Below are positions 9,390 through 59,831 of a DNA stretch of 64,000 bases, in pieces. Source of the DNA: Lachnospiraceae bacterium. GTDB taxonomy: Bacteria > Bacillota > Clostridia > Lachnospirales > Lachnospiraceae. The notes under the pieces were generated by a model. It had not been told where the DNA came from and did no database searches. It saw only the letters and a list, made by a program, of their open reading frames with translations. Where the stretch lies: NCBI GenBank assembly GCA_017615545.1, contig JAFZZY010000013.1, positions 1 through 64,000 on the forward strand. Reading direction: 5' to 3'. Numbering within the stretch: position 1 is the stretch's first letter; each line of letters starts with the position of its first letter. Made by a program: the position numbers and the translations under genes.

Positions 9390-11708
9390 TCACGCTCCGG
9401 TGACATCAAACTCCAACAAAACATTTTGTGTATGATTCTTAAAGTGATTGCGCTCTTCCTGCGCGGCTACGTCGACGTCCAGATCCTTCGCCTCGTTCAA
9501 AACGGGATAATTGAACCGCTTCAAAATGGCATCCCGGATGCGTGTCAGTTCAAATGTCGAAGAAGATTTAATGAGCACACGCTTGCGGTAGACATAGTTG
9601 ATCTTCGGCATGCTGTCCTCGGTAGGCCCGTAGAGCGCCGGCGCCCTGCCCGTGTCCTCAACCGGTTTGATGAACGTCTCTGTGATATATCGGGCGATCT
9701 CTGCCCCCGCCCGATGCGCGGCCGTCTCTGACGGACTGTGCAGGCGGATGACCATCAGGCACATCGACGGCGGATAGCCGGAATTCCTGCGGTACTGGAT
9801 CTCGCGCTCGAAAAACGCGTCGAAATTCTGTTCCGCGGCTGCCTGTATGGAAAAATGCTCCGGTCGGTAGGTCTGGATCACGACGTCGCCTGCGAGCCTT
9901 CCGCGACCGGAACGCCCGGCTGCCTGCGTCAGCAACTGGAACGTTTTCTCCGCCGCGCGGTACATCGGCATGTTCAGCGACCGGTCTGCCAGCAAAACGC
10001 CGACCAGGGTCACATTCGGAAAATCATGTCCCTTCACGATCATCTGCGTGCCGATCAGGATATCGGCCTCATGGTTCGCAAATGCGGACAGGATCTGTTT
10101 ATGTGCGTCCTTTTTCGCCGTGGTGTCCTGGTCCATGCGCAGGATCCTCGCCTCGGGAAATGCGGTCTGTACGAGCAACATAGCCTTCTGCGTGCCGATA
10201 CCCATCGGCGTCATCCGGCCCTCCTTACAGGACGGGCAGTTTCTCGTCGCAGGACGCGTATACCCGCAATAATGACAACGTAGCATGTTGTCCTGGTGAT
10301 AGGTCAATGCGATGTCGCATTTCGGACATTTCTCGACGTAACCGCAGGAGTAACATGACAGGGAGTTCGAAAAACCGCGGCGGTTCAAGAAAAGCATGAC
10401 CTGCTCGTTTTTCTTGAGTCTCTCCTCGATCATTGCATGCAAGGTGCGGCTCAAGATGGAGGAATTGCCCGCCTTCATCTCCGCCCGCATGTCGATGACG
10501 TGCGTCTGCGCCAGGCGGCTGTCCGCATTGCCCCGATGCGATAAGGTGACGAGCTTGTAAATGCCCTGTTTCGCGTGATAGTAACTTTCCACGCTGGGTG
10601 TCGCAGATCCGAAGATCGTCAACGCCCCGGAAACCTTCGCGCGGTACGCGACCAGGTCGCGCGTGTCATATTTGGGGTTATTTTCGTTTTTGTAACTGTC
10701 CTCGTGCTCCTCGTCGACGATGATGATGCCGACGTCCGGCAACGGGGAAAACAGTGCTGAGCGCGGGCCGATGCAGACATCCACCTCGCCCTCTTTGCAT
10801 CGCAGGTACTGCTCGTAGCGCTCGCCCTGCGACATCCGCGAGTTCAGGATGGCGACCCTGTCGCGGAACCGGTCATAAAACCGTTTGACCATCTGATAGG
10901 TCAATGCGATCTCCGGCACCAGCAAAATGGCTTGTTTGCCGTTCTGGATGACACGTTCGATCAACTCCATGTATATGAGCGTCTTTCCGCTGCCGGTGAT
11001 CCCGTAGAGCAGGCAGGTGCGGTTGGCTCCGCGCATGTGCTCCTCCCAGATCTCCTCGATCGCGTTTCTTTGCTCTTCATTCGGCGTAATATCCTCCTGG
11101 CTGTGGCCGCCGCTCATATCGCCGAAATCGCCGAAGGAATAGCCTTCTTCCACCTTGCGGATAATGCCCTGTTCCAGCAGGGGCTTCGTCGTGGATGCGG
11201 ACACATTGAGTTCCTTCGCTACACGCTCAGAACTCAGTCTGCCTTCCTGAAGCAAAGCCTCCAGCAGGCGGACCCGCGCCTGCATATTCTTCTTAGTACG
11301 GATGCCGTCCAGCATCGTTTCCAGCTCTTCCCTCGTCACAGCGGCTTCGTAGTGGAAACTCTTCCGCGTAAGGACCGCAGTTTTGACCGGCATGACGGTC
11401 TGCAGCGCCTTACTGAGGGTAACGCCGTAACGATTGCGCATCCAGTGCGCCATAACGAGCATCTCGTCATCGACCATCAGTCGTTGCTGCAGGATCTCGG
11501 CGATCGGCTTCGTCTTTTCTACAGCGAACTCCGGCGTATCCGTGATCTCACAGACATAGCCGCGGACCGGTGTCTTGCCGTTCCCGAAAGGAACTGCGAC
11601 CACACTGCCGATGTGGACTTCATTTAACAAATCGTCCGGGATCACGTACTGAAAGTACCGGTCGAGTTCTTTAACTTTTCGGTCAATGAGTACGTTTGCG
11701 AATAGCAT
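9390..11708 (-). CDS. priA: Primosomal replication restart helicase PriA
   Basis: PriA recognises stalled replication forks and reloads the replicative helicase. The 772 residues show an N-terminal DNA-binding domain, the Walker A motif GITGSGKT near residue 242, the DEEH box in IIVDEEHEDS, and a zinc-binding insert with eight Cys (CYSCG to CPSC, about 460-500). Helicase motifs V and VI lie at IGTQMIVKG and TQAAGRSGRG. ATG 11708 has an AAAGGA site. It opens the priA-def-fmt-rsmB group. Confidence 0.97.
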   Translation of the reverse strand: MLFANVLIDRKVKELDRYFQYVIPDDLLNEVHIGSVVAVPFGNGKTPVRGYVCEITDTPEFAVEKTKPIAEILQQRLMVDDEMLVMAHWMRNRYGVTLSKALQTVMPVKTAVLTRKSFHYEAAVTREELETMLDGIRTKKNMQARVRLLEALLQEGRLSSERVAKELNVSASTTKPLLEQGIIRKVEEGYSFGDFGDMSGGHSQEDITPNEEQRNAIEEIWEEHMRGANRTCLLYGITGSGKTLIYMELIERVIQNGKQAILLVPEIALTYQMVKRFYDRFRDRVAILNSRMSQGERYEQYLRCKEGEVDVCIGPRSALFSPLPDVGIIIVDEEHEDSYKNENNPKYDTRDLVAYRAKVSGALTIFGSATPSVESYYHAKQGIYKLVTLSHRGNADSRLAQTHVIDMRAEMKAGNSSILSRTLHAMIEERLKKNEQVMLFLNRRGFSNSLSCYSCGYVEKCPKCDIALTYHQDNMLRCHYCGYTRPATRNCPSCKEGRMTPMGIGTQKAMLLVQTAFPEARILRMDQDTTAKKDAHKQILSAFANHEADILIGTQMIVKGHDFPNVTLVGVLLADRSLNMPMYRAAEKTFQLLTQAAGRSGRGRLAGDVVIQTYRPEHFSIQAAAEQNFDAFFEREIQYRRNSGYPPSMCLMVIRLHSPSETAAHRAGAEIARYITETFIKPVEDTGRAPALYGPTEDSMPKINYVYRKRVLIKSSSTFELTRIRDAILKRFNYPVLNEAKDLDVDVAAQEERNHFKNHTQNVLLEFDVTGA

Positions 11709-35044: not shown

Positions 35045-36052
35045 TCAATTCTTCAGGCTTTTCTCGATGGCCTTTGTATAGATCTTTTTTGCGAGTTTGT
35101 AGCACTCTTCGTTATAGGATGCGAGATTCTCCATCATAACGCCGTTATTGACCTCGAGGATCATGTAGCGGTCATCGTAGGTGCGGATCACGTCGCAGGA
35201 TACAAAACGGAGTTTGAATGCATCCGTGACCTTTTGCGCCAGTTCGACCGCTTTTGCGGCGGCTTCGGCGTCCGCATCGGACACGGGGCTCTTTTTAGAA
35301 ACCGGATATAAGATCTCAGGCGCTGCTCCCTGCCCCAGATTATGCTTCCAGGACAGTACATAACTCTCGCCCTTCTTCGGCACGTACGCACCCTTCTTAT
35401 GCTTTTTGTCTCCGTGCTCAAAATCGTAGGAAACCGTCTCACCGGATAACAATCGATCAGCAAACGCGGGATCCTCCGCCACTTTTATCAAAAGCAGTTC
35501 CTGCACGGTGTGCTCACCGTCACCGATCAGCTGCGGACGACATTTCCGGAAAACCACCTGAACCTTCCCGTCGAGCATGATGCACCGCATCTCGTCGCGG
35601 ATCGGAATATAGGGGGAAATGCACATGGAAGGCGCCTCCGTATAGATGCAATGCGCGGCGTACTCAAGTTCCTTCTGTGTCTCTGCCACAAAGACCAGAT
35701 GGCCACCGGTGCCCTGATTATCCTTACAAACGACCTTTTTATATTTCTTTAAAAGCGCCGCCATATCGGCATAGTAACCGGTATCGCCGAAGATGTACTC
35801 GGGATGGGCAGGCGACATAAAGCAGGTGTGCGGAACACAGGGGATGCCCAGATGCTCCATCATATCGGCCGCGATCGACTTATCCTTACAAACGGCTGCC
35901 TGCGCGGCCAGATCCAGCCCGAACTGATAGCCGAATATGAATGCCTTTTTATCATCCTTCGAAAGCAGAAAGGCCCAGTCCCCGGAAAAACCGGTGCATG
36001 TGATCCCTTTCTCCTGACAGATTTCTTTGATCAATTTGACAAATGTACTCAT
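35045..36052 (-). CDS. ATP-grasp ligase of unknown substrate
   Basis: The 335 residues fit an ATP-grasp carboxylate-amine ligase of the RimK/cyanophycin-synthetase type. An N-terminal lobe precedes CKDKSIAADMMEHLGIPCVP (about 74-93), typical of the entry to this fold. KVVCKDNQGTGGHLVF (about 127-142) is the glycine-rich ATP loop, and YMILEVNNGVMMEN near 305 carries the Mg-binding Glu and Asn. ATG 36052 has an AGGAGAAC site and lies 11 bases after the Mur-type ligase. Cyanophycin synthetase joins the same two ligase types in one protein, so the two genes may act on one substrate; the substrate is unknown. Confidence 0.75.
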   Translation of the reverse strand: MSTFVKLIKEICQEKGITCTGFSGDWAFLLSKDDKKAFIFGYQFGLDLAAQAAVCKDKSIAADMMEHLGIPCVPHTCFMSPAHPEYIFGDTGYYADMAALLKKYKKVVCKDNQGTGGHLVFVAETQKELEYAAHCIYTEAPSMCISPYIPIRDEMRCIMLDGKVQVVFRKCRPQLIGDGEHTVQELLLIKVAEDPAFADRLLSGETVSYDFEHGDKKHKKGAYVPKKGESYVLSWKHNLGQGAAPEILYPVSKKSPVSDADAEAAAKAVELAQKVTDAFKLRFVSCDVIRTYDDRYMILEVNNGVMMENLASYNEECYKLAKKIYTKAIEKSLKN

Positions 36053-36063
36053 AGTTCTCCTGT

Positions 36064-37683
36064 TTACGGCATTTCCAGTGTCTCCGGAGGGATCACCTCG
36101 GCGATGACCTTCTTAACGAATTCAGTATCGCTGTAGGGGATCTTTTTGCCGTTGATCTCCTGATAGGTCTCCTGACCCAGATCGATGATGGCGATCAGAT
36201 CGCCTTCCTGTACGTGTTCGATCGCATAGCGGATCGCTTTCTTTCGGTTGGGAATGACTACATAATTTCCCTTCGTCAGCTTAAGGCCCTGAGCGATTGT
36301 CAGGAAAATGTTTTCAAAGGTCTCATAGCGGTTGTGTCCCGAAGTAACGATGGACAGATCCGCGAGTCTTCCGCTGGCCTCTCCCATCTCGAATCTTCGG
36401 GACAATGCGCGATTGCCGTCCGCAGAGAAGATGCAGACCAGACGTTTGGGCAGAAAATGCCGCAGGGACACCAGCAGGTTGCGTGTGCTGTAACCGTTGT
36501 GCGCGAAATCCACACAAACGGAGAAACGCGTGCTCTGATAGACCATATCCAGGCGGCCGGGCACATGAATGCGGCTGAGCGTTTCGATGATGGTCTCGTA
36601 AGATACTCCCATCAAACGTGTGACCGTAATTGCGGCCATGGCATTGCCCACCTGATACAGACCCGGGAAATTCACATCCACAGAGGCAGCCGGTGATGCC
36701 TGGGCATCCTTCTCATAAACGTCCATGTGGACCATGGGACGGAACCGGTCGGAAGTCTCGTAGATATTGTCGGCATAAAACAATGCCTGCTCGTCCTCTG
36801 ACAAAGCCAGCTCCGCAGGCTTCGGTCCCGTGCCGAAAAAGACGGTATTCTTGATGCCTCGGCCGCGAATCTCCGCGAGAAACGCATCCAGATGCTGCGA
36901 ATCGTAGCAAACGATGGGCTGACGAGCAACATCCATCAGCATGCTTTTGAAGTGCAGATATTCTTCAAAACTTTTATGTTCGATGGGGCTGATATGGTCA
37001 CCCTCAACGATATTCAAAAATAAAGCATAGTCGAACGTGATCCCGGCGATACGGTCCATCATGATGCCGGCCGAGGAACACTCCACGACAGCGCACTCGC
37101 ATCCCGCTTTTACAAAGCCGTCGAGGATGCGGAACAGTTCATCGGAGTCGGGTGTCGAGTTCGGAAGCTCCTCCATCTGTCCATCAACGATGGCGCCGCT
37201 GGAACCGACACTCCCGCACTTATGATCGGCGGCATTCAGGATCTCCGAGATCATGTGGGTGGTCGTCGTCTTACCTTTGGAACCGGTCAGGGCGATCATC
37301 TTCATCTTCCGCTCAGGATGATCATAATAATTCGCGATCAGGAGTGCCTTCGTCTTACGTACATTGTCCGTGGAGACGACGGTCACTCGGGACAATGCGG
37401 CAGCGAAGCCTGCATCCCCGTTCTCCTGCGCACGGATCTCCTTCAAAACACGCTCTGTCTGATCTTCTTCTATAACGACAAGCGCCGCGCCGCGCCGGAT
37501 CACATCGCAGATCACTGTGTGTGAGTCAAAACGCACGCCGCGGACGCAAACGTACAGGTCGCCGGGTATGATGCGGCGATGATCCATTTTTGCGGTAACT
37601 CCGGTCACCTCAACTGAAGCGGCCTTCGTACCCTCATATATCTTTCGGCATACTATACCTTCCAACAGGTTTTCTTTAAGCAC
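36064..37683 (-). CDS. MurE-like amide ligase with unusual substrate motif
   Basis: The 539 residues have the three Mur-ligase domains. The P-loop is GSKGKTT (134-140), the carbamylated-Lys candidate lies in HFKSML (Lys246), and VPGRLDMV plus VDFAHNGYS (about 374-399) match MurE. The amino-acid recognition motif DNPR of diaminopimelate-adding MurE is replaced: TSGHNRYE stands where TSDNPRxE is expected. The GxGGDRD segment is also altered to SADGNRA. It is therefore probably not the housekeeping MurE. GTG 37683 overlaps the dehydrogenase gene by 8 bases and has GGAGG, so expression is coupled. It may act with the adjacent ATP-grasp ligase. Confidence 0.8.
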   Translation of the reverse strand: MLKENLLEGIVCRKIYEGTKAASVEVTGVTAKMDHRRIIPGDLYVCVRGVRFDSHTVICDVIRRGAALVVIEEDQTERVLKEIRAQENGDAGFAAALSRVTVVSTDNVRKTKALLIANYYDHPERKMKMIALTGSKGKTTTTHMISEILNAADHKCGSVGSSGAIVDGQMEELPNSTPDSDELFRILDGFVKAGCECAVVECSSAGIMMDRIAGITFDYALFLNIVEGDHISPIEHKSFEEYLHFKSMLMDVARQPIVCYDSQHLDAFLAEIRGRGIKNTVFFGTGPKPAELALSEDEQALFYADNIYETSDRFRPMVHMDVYEKDAQASPAASVDVNFPGLYQVGNAMAAITVTRLMGVSYETIIETLSRIHVPGRLDMVYQSTRFSVCVDFAHNGYSTRNLLVSLRHFLPKRLVCIFSADGNRALSRRFEMGEASGRLADLSIVTSGHNRYETFENIFLTIAQGLKLTKGNYVVIPNRKKAIRYAIEHVQEGDLIAIIDLGQETYQEINGKKIPYSDTEFVKKVIAEVIPPETLEMP

Positions 37684-38740
37684 CGAATACTTCCTCCATC
37701 TGATCGTAAAGCTCTCCGAGTCGTTCGTCGGAAAGATCGGTTTCGTTCAGGATCGTGTAGCGGTCCGCGCGTGTGCCGGCCGCTTTCTGCCATGCCCCGA
37801 TGAAAACTTCCTTCGAGATGCCCAGTTTCGACGGGCATACGGGAACCTGATAGTCCTTCAGCATCTTCGTGATCTTCGCAACATTGCGGCCCTGGAACAC
37901 GCAGGCACCGTAGCTTCCGACCGCAACGGCGATGCCATGGGGCAATGAGACCTCATCGGGATAACACTCTTCCAACGCATGGCAGAACAAATGTTCGGAA
38001 CCCGAGGACGGGCGGGAACTGCCTGCGATCTCCATCGCCAGGCCGCCCATGACCAGGGCGTGCGTCAGCATCTTAATGAAATCCTTGCTGTAGATCTCTT
38101 TATTCTCATTGTAACAGATGGAATTAAACGCCATCTTCGACATCATATAGGCGAAATCTTCCATCGTGCCGTGTTTCTTCTGCGCGGCGAGCTTCCAGTC
38201 ATTGAGCGCCGTGTATTTGCTCACGGTGTCGCCGATTCCGGACAGAAGCTGGTGCTTCGGCGCCGTCAGGATGACATTGGCATCCACGATAACAGCGGCA
38301 GGGATGCCGCAGCCGAAGGTCTTCCGGGCCCTGCCTTCGGTCCCGAGGACCGCCATCGGGGAAGCGATCCCGTCGTTGCTCAGTGTCGTGGGCAGGCACA
38401 GAAACAGCGTCTTGGAAACAAACGCCGCATATTTCGCCATGTCCAGGACGGAACCGCCGCCCAGTCCGATGACCAGATTGATATTTCCCACGCAGATATG
38501 CTTCGCCAGTTCGACGGCGCTGTCAAACGTGCCGGCCGATACCAGATAGACTTCACACTGCTTAAGATCCGCGCAGATATCACGGATCACATTTGCAAAG
38601 ATATCCTTCAGGTTCCCATCGGTCACGAGGATCGCTTTCCTTTTTTTGATATCCGGAATGCAATCCTTCATGACCTGATCCACGCGGGAAAACACGCCCT
38701 CCTCCACGATCAGGTGGTAGGGCAATTGAAATTGTTGCAT
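37676..38740 (-). CDS. Glycerol-1-phosphate dehydrogenase-like enzyme (AraM/EgsA family)
   Basis: This is a metal-dependent NAD(P)H dehydrogenase of the iron-containing alcohol dehydrogenase fold. The 354 residues show GLGGGSVLDMAKYAA (nucleotide loop, about 92-106), PTTLSNDGIASPMA (about 117-130), typical of the sn-glycerol-1-phosphate dehydrogenase branch, and metal ligands in LSGIGD (Asp171), GSEHLFCHALE and LPHG. Known members make sn-glycerol 1-phosphate from dihydroxyacetone phosphate. No geranylgeranylglyceryl phosphate synthase (PcrB) is in the window. It lies 3 bases after clpB and overlaps the Mur-type ligase, which ties it to both. Confidence 0.82.
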   Translation of the reverse strand: MQQFQLPYHLIVEEGVFSRVDQVMKDCIPDIKKRKAILVTDGNLKDIFANVIRDICADLKQCEVYLVSAGTFDSAVELAKHICVGNINLVIGLGGGSVLDMAKYAAFVSKTLFLCLPTTLSNDGIASPMAVLGTEGRARKTFGCGIPAAVIVDANVILTAPKHQLLSGIGDTVSKYTALNDWKLAAQKKHGTMEDFAYMMSKMAFNSICYNENKEIYSKDFIKMLTHALVMGGLAMEIAGSSRPSSGSEHLFCHALEECYPDEVSLPHGIAVAVGSYGACVFQGRNVAKITKMLKDYQVPVCPSKLGISKEVFIGAWQKAAGTRADRYTILNETDLSDERLGELYDQMEEVFGA

Positions 38741-38743
38741 TGA

Positions 38744-41392
38744 TTACTCCTTCTTATCGGCTTTCGAAGCCTCCGTCTCATTTGCTTCCCCATTTGAAGC
38801 GGGAACTGCCGTAGCGAACAGTTCTTCTTTCTCGGCATCCAGGTCGATCAGGATCGAATCACCCATGGAGATCGAACCTTCGAGGATCAGTTTTGCGGCC
38901 AATGTCTCGACGTGCTTCTGCAGGAATCTCTTCAGCGGACGCGCACCATAGGCAGGATCGTAACCTTCATCGATGACGAACTGCTTCGCCGCAGGCGTCA
39001 GTTTGATGACGAGCTGCTTCTCGACCAGTCTCTTATTGACCGATGCAAGCATGAGATCCATGATGCCGGTGATGTTGTCCTTCGTGAGCGGCTTAAAGAG
39101 AATGGTCTCGTCCAGACGGTTCAGGAACTCCGGACGGAAGTGCTCACGCAGGTCGTTGTAGACCATTTCCTTCGCTTCTTCGCTGATCACGCCATTCTCG
39201 TCGATGCCGTCCAGCAGGTACTGGGAACCGATGTTGCTCGTAAGGATGATGACCGTATTCTTAAAATCGACGGTACGGCCCTGAGAGTCGGTCACACGAC
39301 CATCGTCGAGGATCTGTAAGAGGATATTGAAAACGTCGGCGTGGGCCTTCTCGACCTCATCAAAAAGGATTACCGAGTACGGCTTTCTGCGGACGGCTTC
39401 GGTCAGCTGACCGCCCTCCTCGTAACCCACATATCCGGGCGGCGCTCCGATCAAACGGGATACGGAGTGTTTCTCCATGTATTCGGTCATATCGAGACGC
39501 ACCATGTTGTTCTCATCGTCAAAGAGGTTCTGGGCCAGAGCCTTCGCGAGTTCCGTCTTACCTACACCGGTAGGTCCCAGGAACAGGAAGGAACCGATGG
39601 GCTTACCCGGATCTTTGATGCCGGCACGGGAACGGATGATGGACTCGGAAACCTTCGTCACTGCATCATCCTGGCCAATGACTCTCTTATGGAGTTCTTC
39701 GTCGAGATGCAATGTCTTATTGCGCTCGCTCTCGGTCAGTTTTGTCACCGGAATATTCGTCCAGCGAGATACGATAATTCCGATCTCTTCTTCTGTAACC
39801 GCCTCATGGACCAGTGAATAATCGTGGTTCTGCTGCGCGATCTCGGCAGCCTCCAGACGTTTCTGTGCGTCCGGCAGTTTACCGTACTGCAGTTCGGCCG
39901 CCTTCTCCAGATTGTATTCCTGCATCGCTGCCTGGATCTGCTTATTGATATCGTCGATCTCTTCACGGATGACGGAAATGGACTCGAGCTGCTTTTTCTC
40001 CTCTTCCCATTTCGCCATCTGGGTATTCAGTTCTTCCCGTTTCTTCGTTAGTTCCTCGGACAGTTCCGCCAGACGCTCACGGGACAGTTTATCCGTCTCT
40101 TTCTTCAGGGCCGCCTCTTCGATCTCCATCTGCATGACCTTACGGGAGATCTCATCGAGATCTGCCGGCATGGAATCGAGTTCGGTCTTCACCATCGCGC
40201 AGGCCTCATCCACGAGGTCGATGGCTTTATCGGGCAGGAAACGGTCGGAAATGTAACGATTGGACAATGTAGCCGCCGCCACGAGGGCACCATCGGTGAT
40301 CTTTACGCCGTGGAATACTTCGTAACGCTCTTTCAGTCCACGAAGGATGGAAATGGTATCTTCAACCGAGGGCTCATCGACCAGAACGGGTTGGAAACGA
40401 CGCTCCAGGGCCGGATCCTTCTCGATGTACTGACGATATTCGTCGAGGGTCGTCGCACCGATACAACGAAGCTCACCACGCGCCAACATGGGTTTCAGCA
40501 TGTTGCTCGCATCCATGGCGCCGTCGGTCTTGCCTGCGCCTACGATCAGGTGCAACTCATCGATGAACAGGATGATCTGACCTTCACTGTTTTTCACTTC
40601 TTCCAGAACAGACTTCAGTCTTTCCTCAAACTCACCACGATACTTCGCGCCGGCAACCAGTGCGCCCATATCGAGGGAGAATATCTTTTTATCTTTCAGT
40701 GCCTGCGGAACATCGCCACGCACGATACGCTGCGCCAGGCCTTCGATGACGGCCGTTTTACCGACGCCGGGCTCACCGATCAGACACGGATTGTTTTTTG
40801 CCTTACGGGACAATATACGCACGATACGGCGGATCTCTTCATCACGGCCGATGACCGGATCCATTTTCTGCTGACGTGCCTTTTCCACGAGTTCGGTGCC
40901 GTATTTCTCGAGAGACTCGTAAGTTGCCTCAGGATTATCGGTCGTCACGCGCTGATTACCGCGGACGGACTTTAAAGCCATCAAAAAGCCTTCGCGGTTA
41001 ACCCCGAAGTCACGGAACAATGTCTTGGTATCGCCGGCGCTGTATTTGATCAAAGACAGGAACAGATGCTCGACGGATGTATAGTCGTCGCCCATCAGTT
41101 TCGCCTCGTCCTCCGCGCTGATGATTACTTTATTCAACGGACCGGAAAAATACACCTGTACGTCTCCGGATACCTTAACCTTCTTCTGAATGATCTCCTC
41201 GGTGCGTTGCTGCAGGAGTTTCGGGTCGATCGCCATCTTCTCGAGAAGCTTCGCGATCAGACTGTCTTCCTGTGTAAGCAGCGCCAACAGGAAGTGCTCC
41301 TGCTCGATCTGCTGGTTCCCGTATTTGTAAGCCAGCTTTTCGCTCTGCTGAACGGCCTCGGTAGACTTTTGTGTGAATCTGCTGATATTCAT
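38744..41392 (-). CDS. clpB: ClpB disaggregase
   Basis: ClpB is the AAA+ chaperone that pulls proteins out of aggregates with DnaK. The 882 residues contain the Clp N-domain, two ATPase modules (Walker A GEPGVGKT near 206 and GPTGVGKT near 605) and the coiled-coil M-domain between them. No ClpP-binding loop is seen. ATG 41392 was chosen, since a second in-frame ATG 9 bases upstream directly abuts the GGAG ribosome site. A perfect CIRCE element lies in the leader, so HrcA control is very likely. Three further genes follow closely. Confidence 0.97.
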
Positions 41393-41456
41393 ATACGTCA
41401 TCTCCTTAGTCTTTCGGATCTCCCTCCCCGGGATGTTCCGCTTCCTTTTCTGAAAA

Positions 41457-54420: not shown

Positions 54421-57400
54421 TTACTTTTCTTCTTCTTTCTTGAAGATGAGAACACATGCTGACAGGCAGAGGAAACCAAGTACCATCATGGTGATACCGA
54501 TCGCCTTAGCGTAATCGGAGATACCCAGTACGTAGGTCTGGCTGCTGCCTCCGATGATCATCGGAGGATTCTGAGACGCTGTGGTCTCAGCCTGTGTTTC
54601 ATTGGCAAATGCCTGTGCCTCGGAAGGCTTCTTCTCTTCATTTCCGCCGCCCAGAAGAACAGGGTTGGACGGAACTTCTTCCTCTGCAGATGTTACAACT
54701 GCTTCGGTCTCAGCCTCTGTAGATGCCTTCGTCTCAGCTTCCGTTGCAACCGGAGGAAGGGATTCCTCTTCTGCCTCGGTCGTTACCGGAGGAAGTGTTT
54801 CGGGAACAGTCTCGATTACCTCTTCGCCGGTAGACTCTTCGGTCTCAGCCTCGGTAGGAATGATGTATTCCGTGGTAGGCTCAGGCTTGGTTTCCGTGCT
54901 GCTGCCGATCAATGTCGGAGCCTCGGTCGGTGCCTGTGTAGGAGCCTGGGTCTCAGGAGCCTTTGTCTCTGTGCTGCTGCCGATCAATGTCGGAGCCTCA
55001 GTCGGAGCTTCGGTTGTAGGTTCAGGCTTTGTAGGCGCTTCTGTAGGAGCTTCCGTAGGTGCCTCGGTGGTAGGCTCGGGCTTTGTAGGTGCTTCTGTAG
55101 GAGCTTCCGTTGTGGGCTCGGGCTTTGTAGGTGCCTCGGTAGGAGCCTCAGTTGTAGGCTCTTCAGCGCCTGTGGATTCCTCTGTAGGAGCTTCGGTAGG
55201 GATCACATACTCTGTGGTCGGCTCTTCAGCGCCGGTAGACTCTTCCGTAGGAGCCTCGGTCGGGATCACATATTCTGTGGTCGGCTCAGGCTGTGTAGGA
55301 GCTTCGGTAGGAACCTCTGTAGGTGCTTCTGTTGTAGGCTCGGGCTTTGTAGGTGCCTCGGTCGGAACCTCAGTCGGAGCTTCGGTAGGCGCCTCAGTAG
55401 GAGCTTCGGTGGTAGGAACCACGGTAGGAGCCTCTGTAGGTGCTTCTGTAGGAGCCTCTGTAGGTGCCTCGGTCGGTGCTTCCGTAGGAGCTTCGGTGGT
55501 AGGCTCAGCCTTATCGACCATAACGATCAGATCGCTGCCTGTAGAAACAACAGCATTGTCGATGGAGTAAAGCACACCCTTCTTGATCACGAAAGTGATA
55601 TCAGAAGCTACAACATATCCGTTCGGTGCAGCATGCTCATGCAACTTATATGTACCGTTTACAAGATCCTTGATCAGAGTAGGAGTTATACCGGACCTGA
55701 ACTCGATCATATCTGAGTTCTTCTTCGTAACTTCTGCCTTATTACCTGTAGAAACTACATAGTTTGTGAAATCGATCTTGTTACCCTTTTCATCAACACC
55801 TGTGAGCTGGAGGGTCGCACCCGGAAGTTCGGAGTCGTAAACATCCTGCTTGCTGATGTAGACATTTGCTGTCTTCGCCTTATCGTACATAACGATGAGG
55901 TCCTGACCTGCAGATACGGTAACCTTATCTACGCTGTACAGAGCGCCGTCCTTGATCGTGAAGTTGATCTTGGAAGCTACCAGGTAGCCATCCGGTGCAT
56001 TCAGCTCTTCCAGAGTGTAATCGCCATCTGGAAGATCCTTAAATGTTGAAGGCTTGGAACCGCTGAAGAAAGATACGACTGTGCTGGTGGTGATACCGGG
56101 CTTCGCATCAGAAGCGAGCTCGATGTTCTCGGATGTAAACTCGATCGGAGCCTTATCCTTATCTTTTCCGTACAGTCTCAGCTCAGCGCCCGGAAGTTCA
56201 ACACCGTAAACGTCCTGCTTGCTGATCTTAACGGTAGCCTTCTTCGGCTGCGGCTTCGCTGCATCGATCATAACGATCACATTGCCCTCAGCGTAAGCCT
56301 TTGCATTGACCTTAGAGATAGTGCCATCCTTGATCTCAAATTCGATATCGGTAGCTACCATGTAGCCCAAAGGAGCTACTTTCTCGGACAATGTATACTT
56401 ACCATCCTTGAGTCCCTTTACGTAGGAAGGCTCAGTACCGGTAATATATGCGAGTTTATCGTTTGTGGTCTTCTGAAGGGATGCGCCCTTTCCTCCCTCA
56501 AACTGTGTTGCATCAAAGATAACTGTGTTGCCGTTTGCGTCAACACCTGTCAGAACGAGCAGAGCACCATCAAGTTCTTCGTGGCCGGTATTCTGCTTGC
56601 TGATCTTAACATCCTTCGGAACCGGGATCGCGTCGTCGTACATAACGATGAGATCCTCTCCTGTTGCCCAAGACTTGGAAGAACAAGAGATCACTTCGCC
56701 CTCGTATACTGCGAAGGTGATATCGGTTGCTGTGAAGTATCCGCTGGGAGCAGTCTCTTCGTGGAGAACATAAACACCATTTACGAGATCCTTGATCAGG
56801 GTTGCTTCCTTACCGGAGATCCAAGTTACAGTCTGGCCGTCTTCGGAGATCTTCGGGCTGTTCTTGGCGTCAGCGATCTGCGCGTCGGTAAATACTACTG
56901 CCTTGTTGTTTGCATCCGTGCCTTTCAGAGTCATCTCTGCGCCTTCGATCTCATCTCCGCCGGTCGCCTTCTTAGAAAGGGAAACATCGGTGAGAACCGG
57001 GATCGCTTTGTCTGTCATGACGATCAGGTTCGAAGATGCGGAAACAGATGCGTTATTTACTTTCACCAGTTTACCCTTTTCAACGGTAAACGGAATATCA
57101 GTCGTTACATAGTAACCATTCGGAGCTGCCTCTTCGTGGAGGATATAGTCGCCATCCGGCAGTCCTACGATCTTAGATGAATTCGAACCGGAAAGGAACA
57201 TAAGAACGTTGTTCTCGACGCCAAGGAATGTGGCGTCATTTGCAGCCTTAAGGTTGTCCTTCGTAAGAGCTACAGCGTTGTTCTTTGCATCCTTACCGGA
57301 TACGAACAGCTTAGCACCCTTCAGTTCGGTACCGAAAACATCCTGCTTGCTGATCTCAACGTCGGTCAGGATCGGAGCCACATCGTCGAACATAACGATG

Positions 57401-59742
57401 ACATTGCCCTCAGAGTAGGACTTGCTGTTTACGGTTACGACTACATTATTCTGAATCTCAAATGTGATATCGGTCGATACTACATATCCGCCCGGGGCTC
57501 TCTCCTCATGCAGGGTGTAAGAACCATCGGGAAGGTTATGGAAGATCGTGGGAGCCTCGCCGGAGCGGAACTCGATCACGGTTGCAGCGTCGCCTTCGGT
57601 CAGGAGCAGTGCTCCGCCGTTCAGTTCAACGTCTGCAGTTGCGAAAACGATCTGAGCACCCTTTGTATCGGTGCCGTACAGCCACAGGAGTGCGCCGGGA
57701 AGCTCACCGCCCAGGCCGAGAACCTGCTTGCTGATGATAACGTCAGCGAACTTCGGTCCTTCTGTAGTAGGCTCTTCCGTAGTCGGAACTTCGATGGAAG
57801 TCTCAGGCTCGGTGGTCGGGATCTCAACGTAATCCGGAGTATTCTGAACCACGATCGTATTCTTAGCTGCGCTTGCAAACGAAGGCATGGTCAATGTCTT
57901 TGTCGAAGCCTGTACCGGACGATAGCCATACAGGGTTGCGGAAATGCTATCAAAAGGAATGTAGTTTACATTGCCCTGAGCATCCAGCGTAAAGAAGTGA
58001 AGCATGAACTCGCGATCGCCTGCCATCTGATTAGAGAAAGGAAGCGTATTAACGGTGTAACCGTTCTTACTTGCGTTCATGAATTTGCCGGACTTTCTGG
58101 AGCATGCAAGTACTTCGGAAGTCTTTGCATCCACGATCTCGACGCCAAGCTGTACGCCTGCAGGGATCTGTGTGGAGAATGTAGCGGTCACGTCGATCGC
58201 GTTCATGATAACGCTACCGAAACGCTCAGTCGGAAGCTGTGCGTATGCACCGCCTGCAACGACCTTGAAGCCACCGCCTGCGGTCGTCAGAGGAGCGATG
58301 ACCTTATCGATCTGTCTCTCGTTGATGACCTGTGTATTGAAGGTACCGTTTACGGCACCCTTATCCGTTACCTGGAACGGAATGCGTTCGGAATTCAGAA
58401 TATATCCTGCAGGAGCGCCGATCTCTACCAAATAGTAGTTGCCGGGCTTGATCCAGATGGTCGTGCCCTCTGCTGCTACGCTGACTGCCGTTGTGTAATC
58501 ACCCCTGCTGCTGGTCTTGAAGGAAACGAGTTTGCCTTCCATATCGCGAACCTGGAATACAGCGCCGCTCAATGCCTTACCATCAGTGGAAACCTTCTTG
58601 AGGACTACCTTAACCAGAGTCTCGGGAACCGGAACGACCTTGATGCCCGGGATCGAAACAACCGTGAAACGGCTGTTGTGTGTCTCACCGCCGTAGGTAA
58701 CGATGTTCTGAGCGATGACCGAACCATTGACCGCGTTCGCAGTAACGTTGGCGCAAGGAGCCAAAATGGTCGCTGTCATATCAGCATCGTTGGTAAGGTT
58801 ACCATGATACATGCCATCCGCTGAGGATGAGTCATAAATATTATAAAGGATGTTTGTACCTGAGAAGTATGTATCCTCGCTGTTGCGGATCTCTGTTCCA
58901 TCGGTGAACTTATAAGTCATCGCCTGATGGATGTGATAATCCGAATGGCCTGCGAGGTCGAGGTTGATGATCAGGGACTGGTTCGAAGAAGCGCGCTTCA
59001 TCGTAAGTCCTGCATAGTTCACAGTCTCGGGCTGAACGCCTTCAACGCGAAGCTTGTTGCAGAACTGCTTGTACTGATCCGCAGTCATCTTGATAACGTT
59101 TGTTGTATCCGGGGCCAAAGTGATCACGCCGATGTCGTTCTTGTCGCCGCCGGAAAGCTTATCGATCGTTCCTTCCAGAGTCGAAAGAGCCTGAGAAAGG
59201 CCCATCAGATAACGGAACTCTTTTTCAAAATCGATAAAGTATTTATTCTCATCTTCATATAAGAGCTTATAAACGTCCTTCTGCGTATCGCAGTCCGTGA
59301 TGGTGCCGTTGATCTTCGTCTGACCGCCGACTTTCTCAACATAATTCTGTCTGCCGAGAACCGTGCTGGTAGATGAGATCTGGGACGCTACCGGGAACAG
59401 ATAAGTCGCGTAAGAATACTCTGCAATATTGTTTTTAACTGCCTGATTCGTACCGAAATTCGTACCTGCAGACAAAACGTTCGCAGCGATATTACCATTG
59501 GTATGAACCAACGTATCCACGCGATTTTGCGCAAAAAGATGGAAATCACCTGCGACGCCCAGGATATTATATCCGTTGCTGTAGTCGTCATACGAACCTA
59601 CGATCGTCGCAATCTGATCTCCACTAACTGATGAATAATCTGCATAAAAACTATTGCCGGTGATAGCTGTTCCTGTTACGATCAACAGAACAGACATCAC
59701 CACGGCCAAAGCCTTTTTGAATGCATTTACCCTTCCTCTCAT
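54421..59742 (-). CDS. Large multi-domain surface protein (anchor-A head, SpaA repeats, Thr/Pro stalk)
   Basis: The 1773 residues begin with a signal peptide (about 8-30). The head (about 40-345) has the choice-of-anchor-A pattern (YNILGVAGDFHLFAQN, VHTNGNIAANVL). A SpaA-type domain follows (VVLKKVSTDGKALSGAVF). From about 663 to 1410 come six related SpaA/prealbumin-like domains, each opening with ISKQ and containing an L-E-APxGY motif. The Lys and Glu placement fits isopeptide-forming domains. A TEAPTEAP/KPEPTTEAPT stalk (about 1410-1660), a membrane helix and KKEEEK end the protein. No LPXTG is visible. ATG 59742 has GAGGAGG; ATGs upstream lack support. It is probably an adhesin or pilin-like protein; the ligand is unknown. 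Confidence 0.88.
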   Translation of the reverse strand: MRGRVNAFKKALAVVMSVLLIVTGTAITGNSFYADYSSVSGDQIATIVGSYDDYSNGYNILGVAGDFHLFAQNRVDTLVHTNGNIAANVLSAGTNFGTNQAVKNNIAEYSYATYLFPVASQISSTSTVLGRQNYVEKVGGQTKINGTITDCDTQKDVYKLLYEDENKYFIDFEKEFRYLMGLSQALSTLEGTIDKLSGGDKNDIGVITLAPDTTNVIKMTADQYKQFCNKLRVEGVQPETVNYAGLTMKRASSNQSLIINLDLAGHSDYHIHQAMTYKFTDGTEIRNSEDTYFSGTNILYNIYDSSSADGMYHGNLTNDADMTATILAPCANVTANAVNGSVIAQNIVTYGGETHNSRFTVVSIPGIKVVPVPETLVKVVLKKVSTDGKALSGAVFQVRDMEGKLVSFKTSSRGDYTTAVSVAAEGTTIWIKPGNYYLVEIGAPAGYILNSERIPFQVTDKGAVNGTFNTQVINERQIDKVIAPLTTAGGGFKVVAGGAYAQLPTERFGSVIMNAIDVTATFSTQIPAGVQLGVEIVDAKTSEVLACSRKSGKFMNASKNGYTVNTLPFSNQMAGDREFMLHFFTLDAQGNVNYIPFDSISATLYGYRPVQASTKTLTMPSFASAAKNTIVVQNTPDYVEIPTTEPETSIEVPTTEEPTTEGPKFADVIISKQVLGLGGELPGALLWLYGTDTKGAQIVFATADVELNGGALLLTEGDAATVIEFRSGEAPTIFHNLPDGSYTLHEERAPGGYVVSTDITFEIQNNVVVTVNSKSYSEGNVIVMFDDVAPILTDVEISKQDVFGTELKGAKLFVSGKDAKNNAVALTKDNLKAANDATFLGVENNVLMFLSGSNSSKIVGLPDGDYILHEEAAPNGYYVTTDIPFTVEKGKLVKVNNASVSASSNLIVMTDKAIPVLTDVSLSKKATGGDEIEGAEMTLKGTDANNKAVVFTDAQIADAKNSPKISEDGQTVTWISGKEATLIKDLVNGVYVLHEETAPSGYFTATDITFAVYEGEVISCSSKSWATGEDLIVMYDDAIPVPKDVKISKQNTGHEELDGALLVLTGVDANGNTVIFDATQFEGGKGASLQKTTNDKLAYITGTEPSYVKGLKDGKYTLSEKVAPLGYMVATDIEFEIKDGTISKVNAKAYAEGNVIVMIDAAKPQPKKATVKISKQDVYGVELPGAELRLYGKDKDKAPIEFTSENIELASDAKPGITTSTVVSFFSGSKPSTFKDLPDGDYTLEELNAPDGYLVASKINFTIKDGALYSVDKVTVSAGQDLIVMYDKAKTANVYISKQDVYDSELPGATLQLTGVDEKGNKIDFTNYVVSTGNKAEVTKKNSDMIEFRSGITPTLIKDLVNGTYKLHEHAAPNGYVVASDITFVIKKGVLYSIDNAVVSTGSDLIVMVDKAEPTTEAPTEAPTEAPTEAPTEAPTEAPTVVPTTEAPTEAPTEAPTEVPTEAPTKPEPTTEAPTEVPTEAPTQPEPTTEYVIPTEAPTEESTGAEEPTTEYVIPTEAPTEESTGAEEPTTEAPTEAPTKPEPTTEAPTEAPTKPEPTTEAPTEAPTEAPTKPEPTTEAPTEAPTLIGSSTETKAPETQAPTQAPTEAPTLIGSSTETKPEPTTEYIIPTEAETEESTGEEVIETVPETLPPVTTEAEEESLPPVATEAETKASTEAETEAVVTSAEEEVPSNPVLLGGGNEEKKPSEAQAFANETQAETTASQNPPMIIGGSSQTYVLGISDYAKAIGITMMVLGFLCLSACVLIFKKEEEK
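54880..55512 (-). repeat. Tandem repeat coding the Thr/Pro/Glu stalk
   Basis: Imperfect 12-base units (coding TEAP) and longer units (coding KPEPTTEAPTEAP and PTTEYVIPTEAPTEES) repeat in frame. The higher-order unit PTTEYVIPTEAPTEESTGAE occurs twice back to back and a third time in altered form. Slippage could lengthen or shorten the stalk without frameshift. Confidence 0.9.
55513..57755 (-). repeat. Six tandem SpaA-like domain repeats
   Basis: Each unit of about 115-125 codons starts with a beta strand ending ISKQ or LSKK, continues ExxGAxLxLxGxD, and ends LIVMxDxA. The repeats are divergent at DNA level, so the duplication is old. They encode the rod of the surface protein. Confidence 0.85.
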
Positions 59743-59831
59743 GATACAAAACCTCCTCATATACAACATGCAAATATATACCAAACACGGGCCATCCCAT
59801 ATTAACCCGCAATATATCGCATATCAATTTT

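Follow-up and report, generated by a model that had tools for sequence, protein, structure and literature searches.

What amino acid is added by a MurE whose DNPR motif has been replaced? The third residue of the stem peptide bears on the cross-linking of the wall and on its sensing by the host, and the question arises at a single gene in the window, the whole 64,000-nucleotide stretch of Lachnospiraceae DNA that was analysed. An earlier reading of the letters (the sequence-only reading) had described the product of this gene as a MurE-like ligase with GHNR in place of DNPR, and had predicted that it retains catalysis with a different acceptor amino acid or amine. We assessed this prediction by a combination of alignment, structure modelling, phylogenetic analysis and searches of related genomes.

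Identity of the window gene

36064-37683, minus strand: MurE of the HNR subfamily, 539 aa, GTG start; the only MurE found in the draft genome

The open reading frame encodes a full-length MurE. The product contains the Pfam domains Mur_ligase_M and Mur_ligase_C and scores 304.7 bits against the MurE subfamily model TIGR01085, for which the curated cut-off is 257.3. An AlphaFold2 model built with 22 sequences (mean pLDDT 91.2, pTM 0.88) was compared with known structures over the aligned ranges, and its top matches were MurE enzymes sharing the fold along the full chain: 2xja (Z 39.2, 2.9 Å, 486 residues aligned), 4c12 (Z 38.1, 3.2 Å, 484 aligned) and 1e8c (Z 37.7, 3.0 Å, 478 aligned). The leading reading is that the gene is the housekeeping murE of a Lachnospiraceae genus from ruminant guts, the members of which are uncultured.

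The fold is common to the meso-diaminopimelate (meso-DAP) adding enzymes (EC 6.3.2.13; E. coli 1e8c, M. tuberculosis 2wtz/2xja) and the L-lysine-adding enzymes (EC 6.3.2.7; S. aureus 4c12), and the window protein falls below the curated cut-offs for both activities. It scores 313.4 bits against NF001126, the meso-DAP-adding equivalog (cut-off 373), and 245.3 bits against NF010628, the L-Lys-adding equivalog (cut-off 536). The ordinary MurE of a family relative (L012) passes NF001126 with 532.9 bits, while the HNR enzyme of Mobilibacterium timonense scores 374.0 and L136 scores 368.5. The NF001126 result argues against a MurE that still adds meso-DAP, holding the same ligand by other contacts and drawing it from an epimerase other than DapF or from uptake, an explanation that we consider rather unlikely. 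The NF010628 result similarly argues against an enzyme adding L-lysine or L-ornithine to a Lys-type wall, which we regard as improbable.

Residues of the active site and the distal pocket

37267-37284, minus strand: P-loop GSKGKT, residues 134-139 (within TGSKGKTTT), placed by alignment
36946-36948, minus strand: Lys246, putative carbamylated lysine, invariant in 22 sequences
36406-36426, minus strand: SADGNRA, residues 420-426, with Arg425 aligned to the Arg of GDRD
36328-36339, minus strand: GHNR, residues 449-452, aligned to the DNPR site
36169-36183, minus strand: DLGQE, residues 501-505, aligned to the GKGHE site; further changed stretch of the distal pocket

The catalytic regions are preserved, as the sequence-only reading had stated: the P-loop reads TGSKGKTTT, the PGRxD region reads VPGRLD, and Lys246 is present at the position that we take to be that of the carbamylated lysine of MurE. 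Acyl-phosphate chemistry is established for MurE and is expected here from the kept motifs. Since these motifs are retained, the genome yielded no second MurE and the gene is conserved through the genus, catalysis is very likely retained.

The placement of GHNR at the DNPR site was borne out by two alignments. A phmmer alignment with M. tuberculosis MurE (2wtz) runs ungapped from the GDRD segment to the DNPR site and lays IVTSGHNRYE on VVTDDNPRDE. A multiple alignment including E. coli K-12 MurE (L190; positions are those of the full-length protein, literature numbers being one lower) places GHNR on D414-R417, with D414 corresponding to G449, N415 to H450, P416 to N451 and R417 to R452; R390 corresponds to R425, and G465-K466-G467-H468-E469 to D501-L502-G503-Q504-E505. 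There is no shifted DNPR, and a pattern search found none elsewhere in the protein. The distal pocket of the window enzyme consequently differs from that of E. coli by D414>G, N415>H, P416>N, G465>D, K466>L and H468>Q, with R417 and E469 kept. At the sites corresponding to R390, D414 to R417 and G465 to E469, all 24 MurE sequences from other genera of the family carry R, D, N, P/S/H, R, G, K, G, H and E. The upstream segment SADGNRA had also been called unusual; this holds for SAD, which replaces GCG, and was rejected for the segment as a whole, as the Asn of GNR, where other enzymes have GDR, is the family norm (24 of the 24 Lachnospiraceae MurEs examined).

In the S. aureus structure paper PMC3829189, meso-DAP is described as bound through its distal carboxylate by the Asn and Arg of DNPR and through its distal amine by the Asp together with Glu468; in S. 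aureus MurE the Asn also contacts Lys457 and Glu460. We take Lys457 to be the lysine of GKGHE, in which case two mutually touching residues are both changed in the window enzyme. The DLGQE stretch, to which the sequence-only reading had not drawn attention, strengthens the GHNR observation, both belonging to the site for the distal side chain.

Compared with meso-DAP-adding enzymes, the window protein keeps the P-loop, Lys246, the Arg of GDRD, the last Arg of DNPR and the Glu of GKGHE, but has GHNR for DNPR and DLGQE for GKGHE. The retention of Arg417 and Glu469 is compatible with continued use of meso-DAP; the simultaneous change of three of the four DNPR residues and of K466, at a site where all 24 family enzymes keep D, N, R, G, K, H and E, speaks against it. 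The kept Arg417 argues for an acceptor with a distal carboxylate, so that a DAP-like amino acid remains likely; nothing found favours the simple amine that the sequence-only reading had allowed for. For a lysine- or ornithine-adding enzyme, the loss of the positive charge of K466 and the gain of D501 would produce a more acidic pocket, as is reported for the S. aureus Lys enzyme (PMC3829189), with which the window protein also shares Glu469. However, S. aureus has Ala where Arg417 is kept here, and its DNPA motif is described as using its Asp (PMC3829189); the window protein has Gly at the position where this residue, Asp406, binds the lysine amine.

A clade of HNR enzymes

The GHNR motif is identical in all six genomes of the genus and is also present in M. 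timonense (Anaerovoracaceae), so that chance or sequencing error is unlikely. The records of the genus MAGs give a rumen or omasum origin for three of five. A named genome collection was scanned with two short peptide patterns, a procedure that cannot show absence elsewhere, and yielded six loci, one in M. timonense and five in genus members G001-G005, the latter being the same genomes and adding no cases. Among 197 genomes of the M. timonense family, the top matches were four more enzymes with 46-48% identity to the M. timonense protein; these carry EHNR and GLG(D/H)D, and each genome gave one match at E 1e-40, compared with two in M. timonense. The second MurE-like gene of M. timonense (L164:5344-6885, minus strand) has EDPG at the DNPR site, and its best model is the Lys-ligase, below the cut-off. 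Two further MurE loci of that family (L156, L160) represent another variant, in which ASPR and GKGNVPYEE occupy the two stretches of the distal site.

Two substitutions characterize the group. His at the position of N415 and Leu or Phe at that of K466 occur together in 11 of 11 HNR sequences (six from the genus, M. timonense and four others), while Asn and Lys are kept in 47 of 47 DNxR sequences (24 from Lachnospiraceae and 23 further); two more sequences have ASPR with Lys. The M. timonense-family HNR enzymes share with the window protein the H-N-R residues, the SKGKTT P-loop and the loss of K466, and fall with it into one clade. They differ in their overall identity to the window protein (36-39%), in the Glu that opens the motif in four of them, in the second stretch (GFGHE or GLG(D/H)D) and in their gene neighbours. 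In three of these genomes a threonine aldolase-like gene lies directly 3' of the EHNR murE (L165:7542-8684, L166:8277-9317, L168:5384-6454); the L165 product matches Beta_elim_lyase. A role in the synthesis or processing of an amino acid is conceivable.

A careful tree of 50 sequences was calculated without the motif, P-loop and TPD columns, leaving out near-identical genus members (L008, L010, L011), near-duplicates (L019, L028, L135, L139, L151) and divergent sequences (L156, L160, L164). It recovered the HNR clade (the window protein, two genus members, M. timonense and three others) with support of 100/99, apart from the family's own MurEs, and M. timonense was the sequence nearest to the genus outside it. 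A quick tree of 58 sequences using all columns, from which L008, L010 and L011 were again left out, gave the same grouping for eight HNR sequences with support of 99. Since the HNR clade stands apart from the family MurEs in these trees, the genus enzyme is not an ordinary descendant of the family's MurE; transfer and an old paralogue could both account for it, the tree giving no direction.

The only MurE found in the genus and its neighbours

The sequence-only reading had proposed searching the rest of the genome for a canonical MurE. A Mur_ligase_M profile search of the draft genome returned five genes, and the four besides the window gene read as MurF (adjoining Ddl), MurD (between MraY and FtsW), MurC and FolC. 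Five matches were likewise obtained in five of the six genus genomes and four in G005, in which the MurD-like one is missing; in the five genomes other than that of the window the matches were paired by score only. A canonical MurE elsewhere was therefore rejected, none being found in the six genus genomes, all of which are drafts (listed completeness 88-100%). The only MurF found in the window's own genome (L001:1048-2655, minus strand) has membrane-like N-terminal segments, gives no match to the Mur_ligase N-terminal domain (PF01225) and scores 239 bits against TIGR01143, whose cut-off is 288.6. The status of the window enzyme as the only MurE found supports, indirectly, a role in UDP-MurNAc-tripeptide synthesis.

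37676-38740, minus strand: Fe-ADH_2 / glycerol-1-phosphate-dehydrogenase-like gene, sharing 8 nt with the start of murE
35045-36052, minus strand: ATP-grasp gene, 11 nt after murE, with weak similarity to RimK and to cyanophycin synthetase ATP-grasp domains
38744-41401, minus strand: ClpB chaperone, 3 nt upstream of the Fe-ADH gene

The tight packing of the Fe-ADH, murE and ATP-grasp genes would suit a MurE-like ligase working with these neighbours in another, non-wall pathway. The pairing of an ATP-grasp protein with a Mur ligase recalls cyanophycin synthetase, the Mur-ligase half of which shares the fold of the window protein (7wae: Z 28.5, 2.9 Å, 369 aligned) and whose ATP-grasp domain is weakly similar to the window's ATP-grasp neighbour (E 0.006). 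In the window, however, the ATP-grasp and Mur domains are encoded by separate genes, and the MurE scores 124.6 bits against a cyanophycin synthetase cut-off of 850. The Fe-ADH gene immediately precedes murE in the other five genus genomes as well (truncated by the contig end in one), and the ATP-grasp gene is also found in the five other genus loci. Neither has a match near the Anaerovoracaceae HNR MurEs, and the flanks examined around the ATP-grasp gene of two other genera of the family contain no murE; a fixed functional trio was rejected on these grounds. With no other MurE found in six draft genomes, even though murC, murD, murF, mraY, ftsW and ddl can all be read in G000, a ligase of a non-wall pathway is very improbable.

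Several further features of these neighbourhoods were recorded. The ATP-grasp protein has distant relatives in other families of the order, and the copy in G409 adjoins a TPR gene, as in the window. The ATP-grasp gene of one genus member (L061:1975-3011) is broken across two frames, at the same locus as the Fe-ADH gene cut by the contig end; in another (L062:10390-18631) an extra ATP-grasp fragment and several kb separate the ATP-grasp gene from the TPR gene. Elsewhere in the window, positions 54421-59784 (minus strand) encode a protein of 1787 aa that combines similar domains in repeated copies with long tracts of the TEAPTEAPT kind and looks like a surface protein.

Genes for diaminopimelate and lysine

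The genes of the genus point to LL-DAP. DapB is present in six of six genomes, with a dapA-like gene beside dapB (read in G000 only), and DapL exceeds its cut-off in all six, one copy being partial; the genes of the LL-DAP route, DapA (from G000), DapB and DapL, are thus present. DapF (PF01678) was found in none of the six, compared with 28 of 31 family genomes from other genera and 16 of 24 genomes of the order outside the family, and DapF is described as readily recognised by this model (PMC6721243, in excerpt). Ddh (TIGR01921, over cut-off) was likewise found in none, compared with 18 of 31 and 12 of 24 genomes, respectively. Both were missing from the matches in 6/6 genus genomes and in 4/55 elsewhere (G010, G012, G073, G076). 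With DapA, DapB and DapL present and neither DapF nor Ddh found, the known genes lead to LL-DAP and stop. The lack of DapF and Ddh matches also fits a Lys-type wall, against which the retained route to LL-DAP can be set.

The chief evidence opposing a strict absence of meso-DAP comes from LysA, an enzyme that uses meso-DAP and is not decaying in the genus. LysA of the family type is present in 6/6 genus genomes, under the curated cut-off as for most of the family. In a comparison of five genus genomes (G004 left out) with 15 genomes of other genera, the genus keeps 185 of 192 positions that are invariant in the 15 relatives; when the relatives were left out one at a time, each showed 0-6 changes, so that the 7 of the genus lie slightly above this range but are few. 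Because LysA needs meso-DAP and is conserved, an as yet unrecognised epimerase or salvage of meso-DAP has to be considered, and the lack of DapF was rejected as simple proof that meso-DAP is lacking. Free meso-DAP might be salvaged in the rumen.

Two further observations favour an enzyme that still adds meso-DAP. Among the relatives without DapF and Ddh matches (G010 and G012), G012 nevertheless has an ordinary-looking DNSR MurE. Furthermore, M. timonense, nearest to the genus on the careful tree, combines an HNR MurE with a DapF domain, which weakens the link of the HNR enzyme to DapF loss, although an organism making lysine alongside LL-DAP would have DapF too; dapF is reported in LL-DAP taxa (PMC9686282, PMC7601586, both in excerpt). 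The M. timonense domain lies at residues 1231-1336 (PF01678) of a 1353-aa frame (L163:3028-7086, plus strand), following a carbamoyl-phosphate synthase large chain; G078 (1350 aa) and G088 (1344 aa) contain frames of similar length with DapF matches. In the taxa treated in the excerpt of PMC9686282, genome data told DAP from Lys walls but did not tell LL-DAP from meso-DAP.

Acceptor and history of the HNR enzyme

The reading that we favour, with a probability of about 0.4, is that the window MurE has an altered distal pocket and takes LL-DAP instead of meso-DAP. A small remainder of the probability falls to explanations other than those considered here. On the favoured reading, Arg425, which is retained, would bind the acceptor by its alpha-carboxylate, and the rebuilt distal pocket would accept LL-DAP, the end product of the DapA-DapB-DapL route of the genome. 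In excerpts of PMC3681970, the rate of the DNPR MurE of V. spinosum, a DapL organism, with LL-DAP is reported as <1% of that with meso-DAP; a cell containing only LL-DAP would accordingly be poorly served by a DNPR enzyme. The change of acceptor predicted by the sequence-only reading is plausible and partly supported: the distal-site residues changed jointly in a monophyletic clade, and 6/6 genus genomes lack DapF and Ddh matches; on the opposing side stand the kept Arg417, which favours a DAP-like amino acid, and the well-conserved LysA.

GHNR was rejected as a general LL-DAP signature, as DNPR is present in a Streptomyces MurE homologue, which is plasmid-borne and may not be the housekeeping copy; HNR is thus not common to all MurE homologues of LL-DAP bacteria. 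The Streptomyces homologue came from a plasmid search giving 44 records with MurE homologues, all below 60% identity, of which three were opened; the Deinococcus homologue gave no match to the motif pattern, and the Vescimonas homologue gave two matches, unaligned.

9390-11708, minus strand: PriA, identified by reading and used as a query; no murE or dapF among its neighbours

At 24 DNxR murE loci of the family, examined with flanks of about 1.5 kb or less, PriA was matched in 10, DapF in six and both in two. We infer as the simplest history that dapF and the native murE were lost and an HNR murE gained, the latter displacing a native dapF-murE pair; the six genus genomes represent one lineage, in which the absence of dapF and the change of murE count as one event. 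A broader proposal is that recognition of the third residue by MurE was solved a second time in the HNR clade, by replacing Asn with His and Lys with Leu (Phe) in the distal pocket. The enzyme would have entered the genus from outside and displaced the native pair, so that this Lachnospiraceae lineage would carry LL-DAP or a different non-meso residue in its wall, with a possible sequence mark for such walls; taken as a whole, this proposal is tentative and somewhat unlikely. Literature searches on M. timonense, Mogibacterium, Lachnospiraceae MurE or DAP epimerase, and LL-DAP found no paper on the wall chemistry of HNR organisms.

An HNR MurE with a coupled change of the distal pocket, the only MurE found in genomes without DapF or Ddh matches, provides a concrete enzyme for the question of stereochemistry at the third residue. 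Automatic labels of 'meso-DAP ligase' may be wrong for this group of MurEs, and the wall of the genus may contain an unusual form of a usual cell-wall amino acid.
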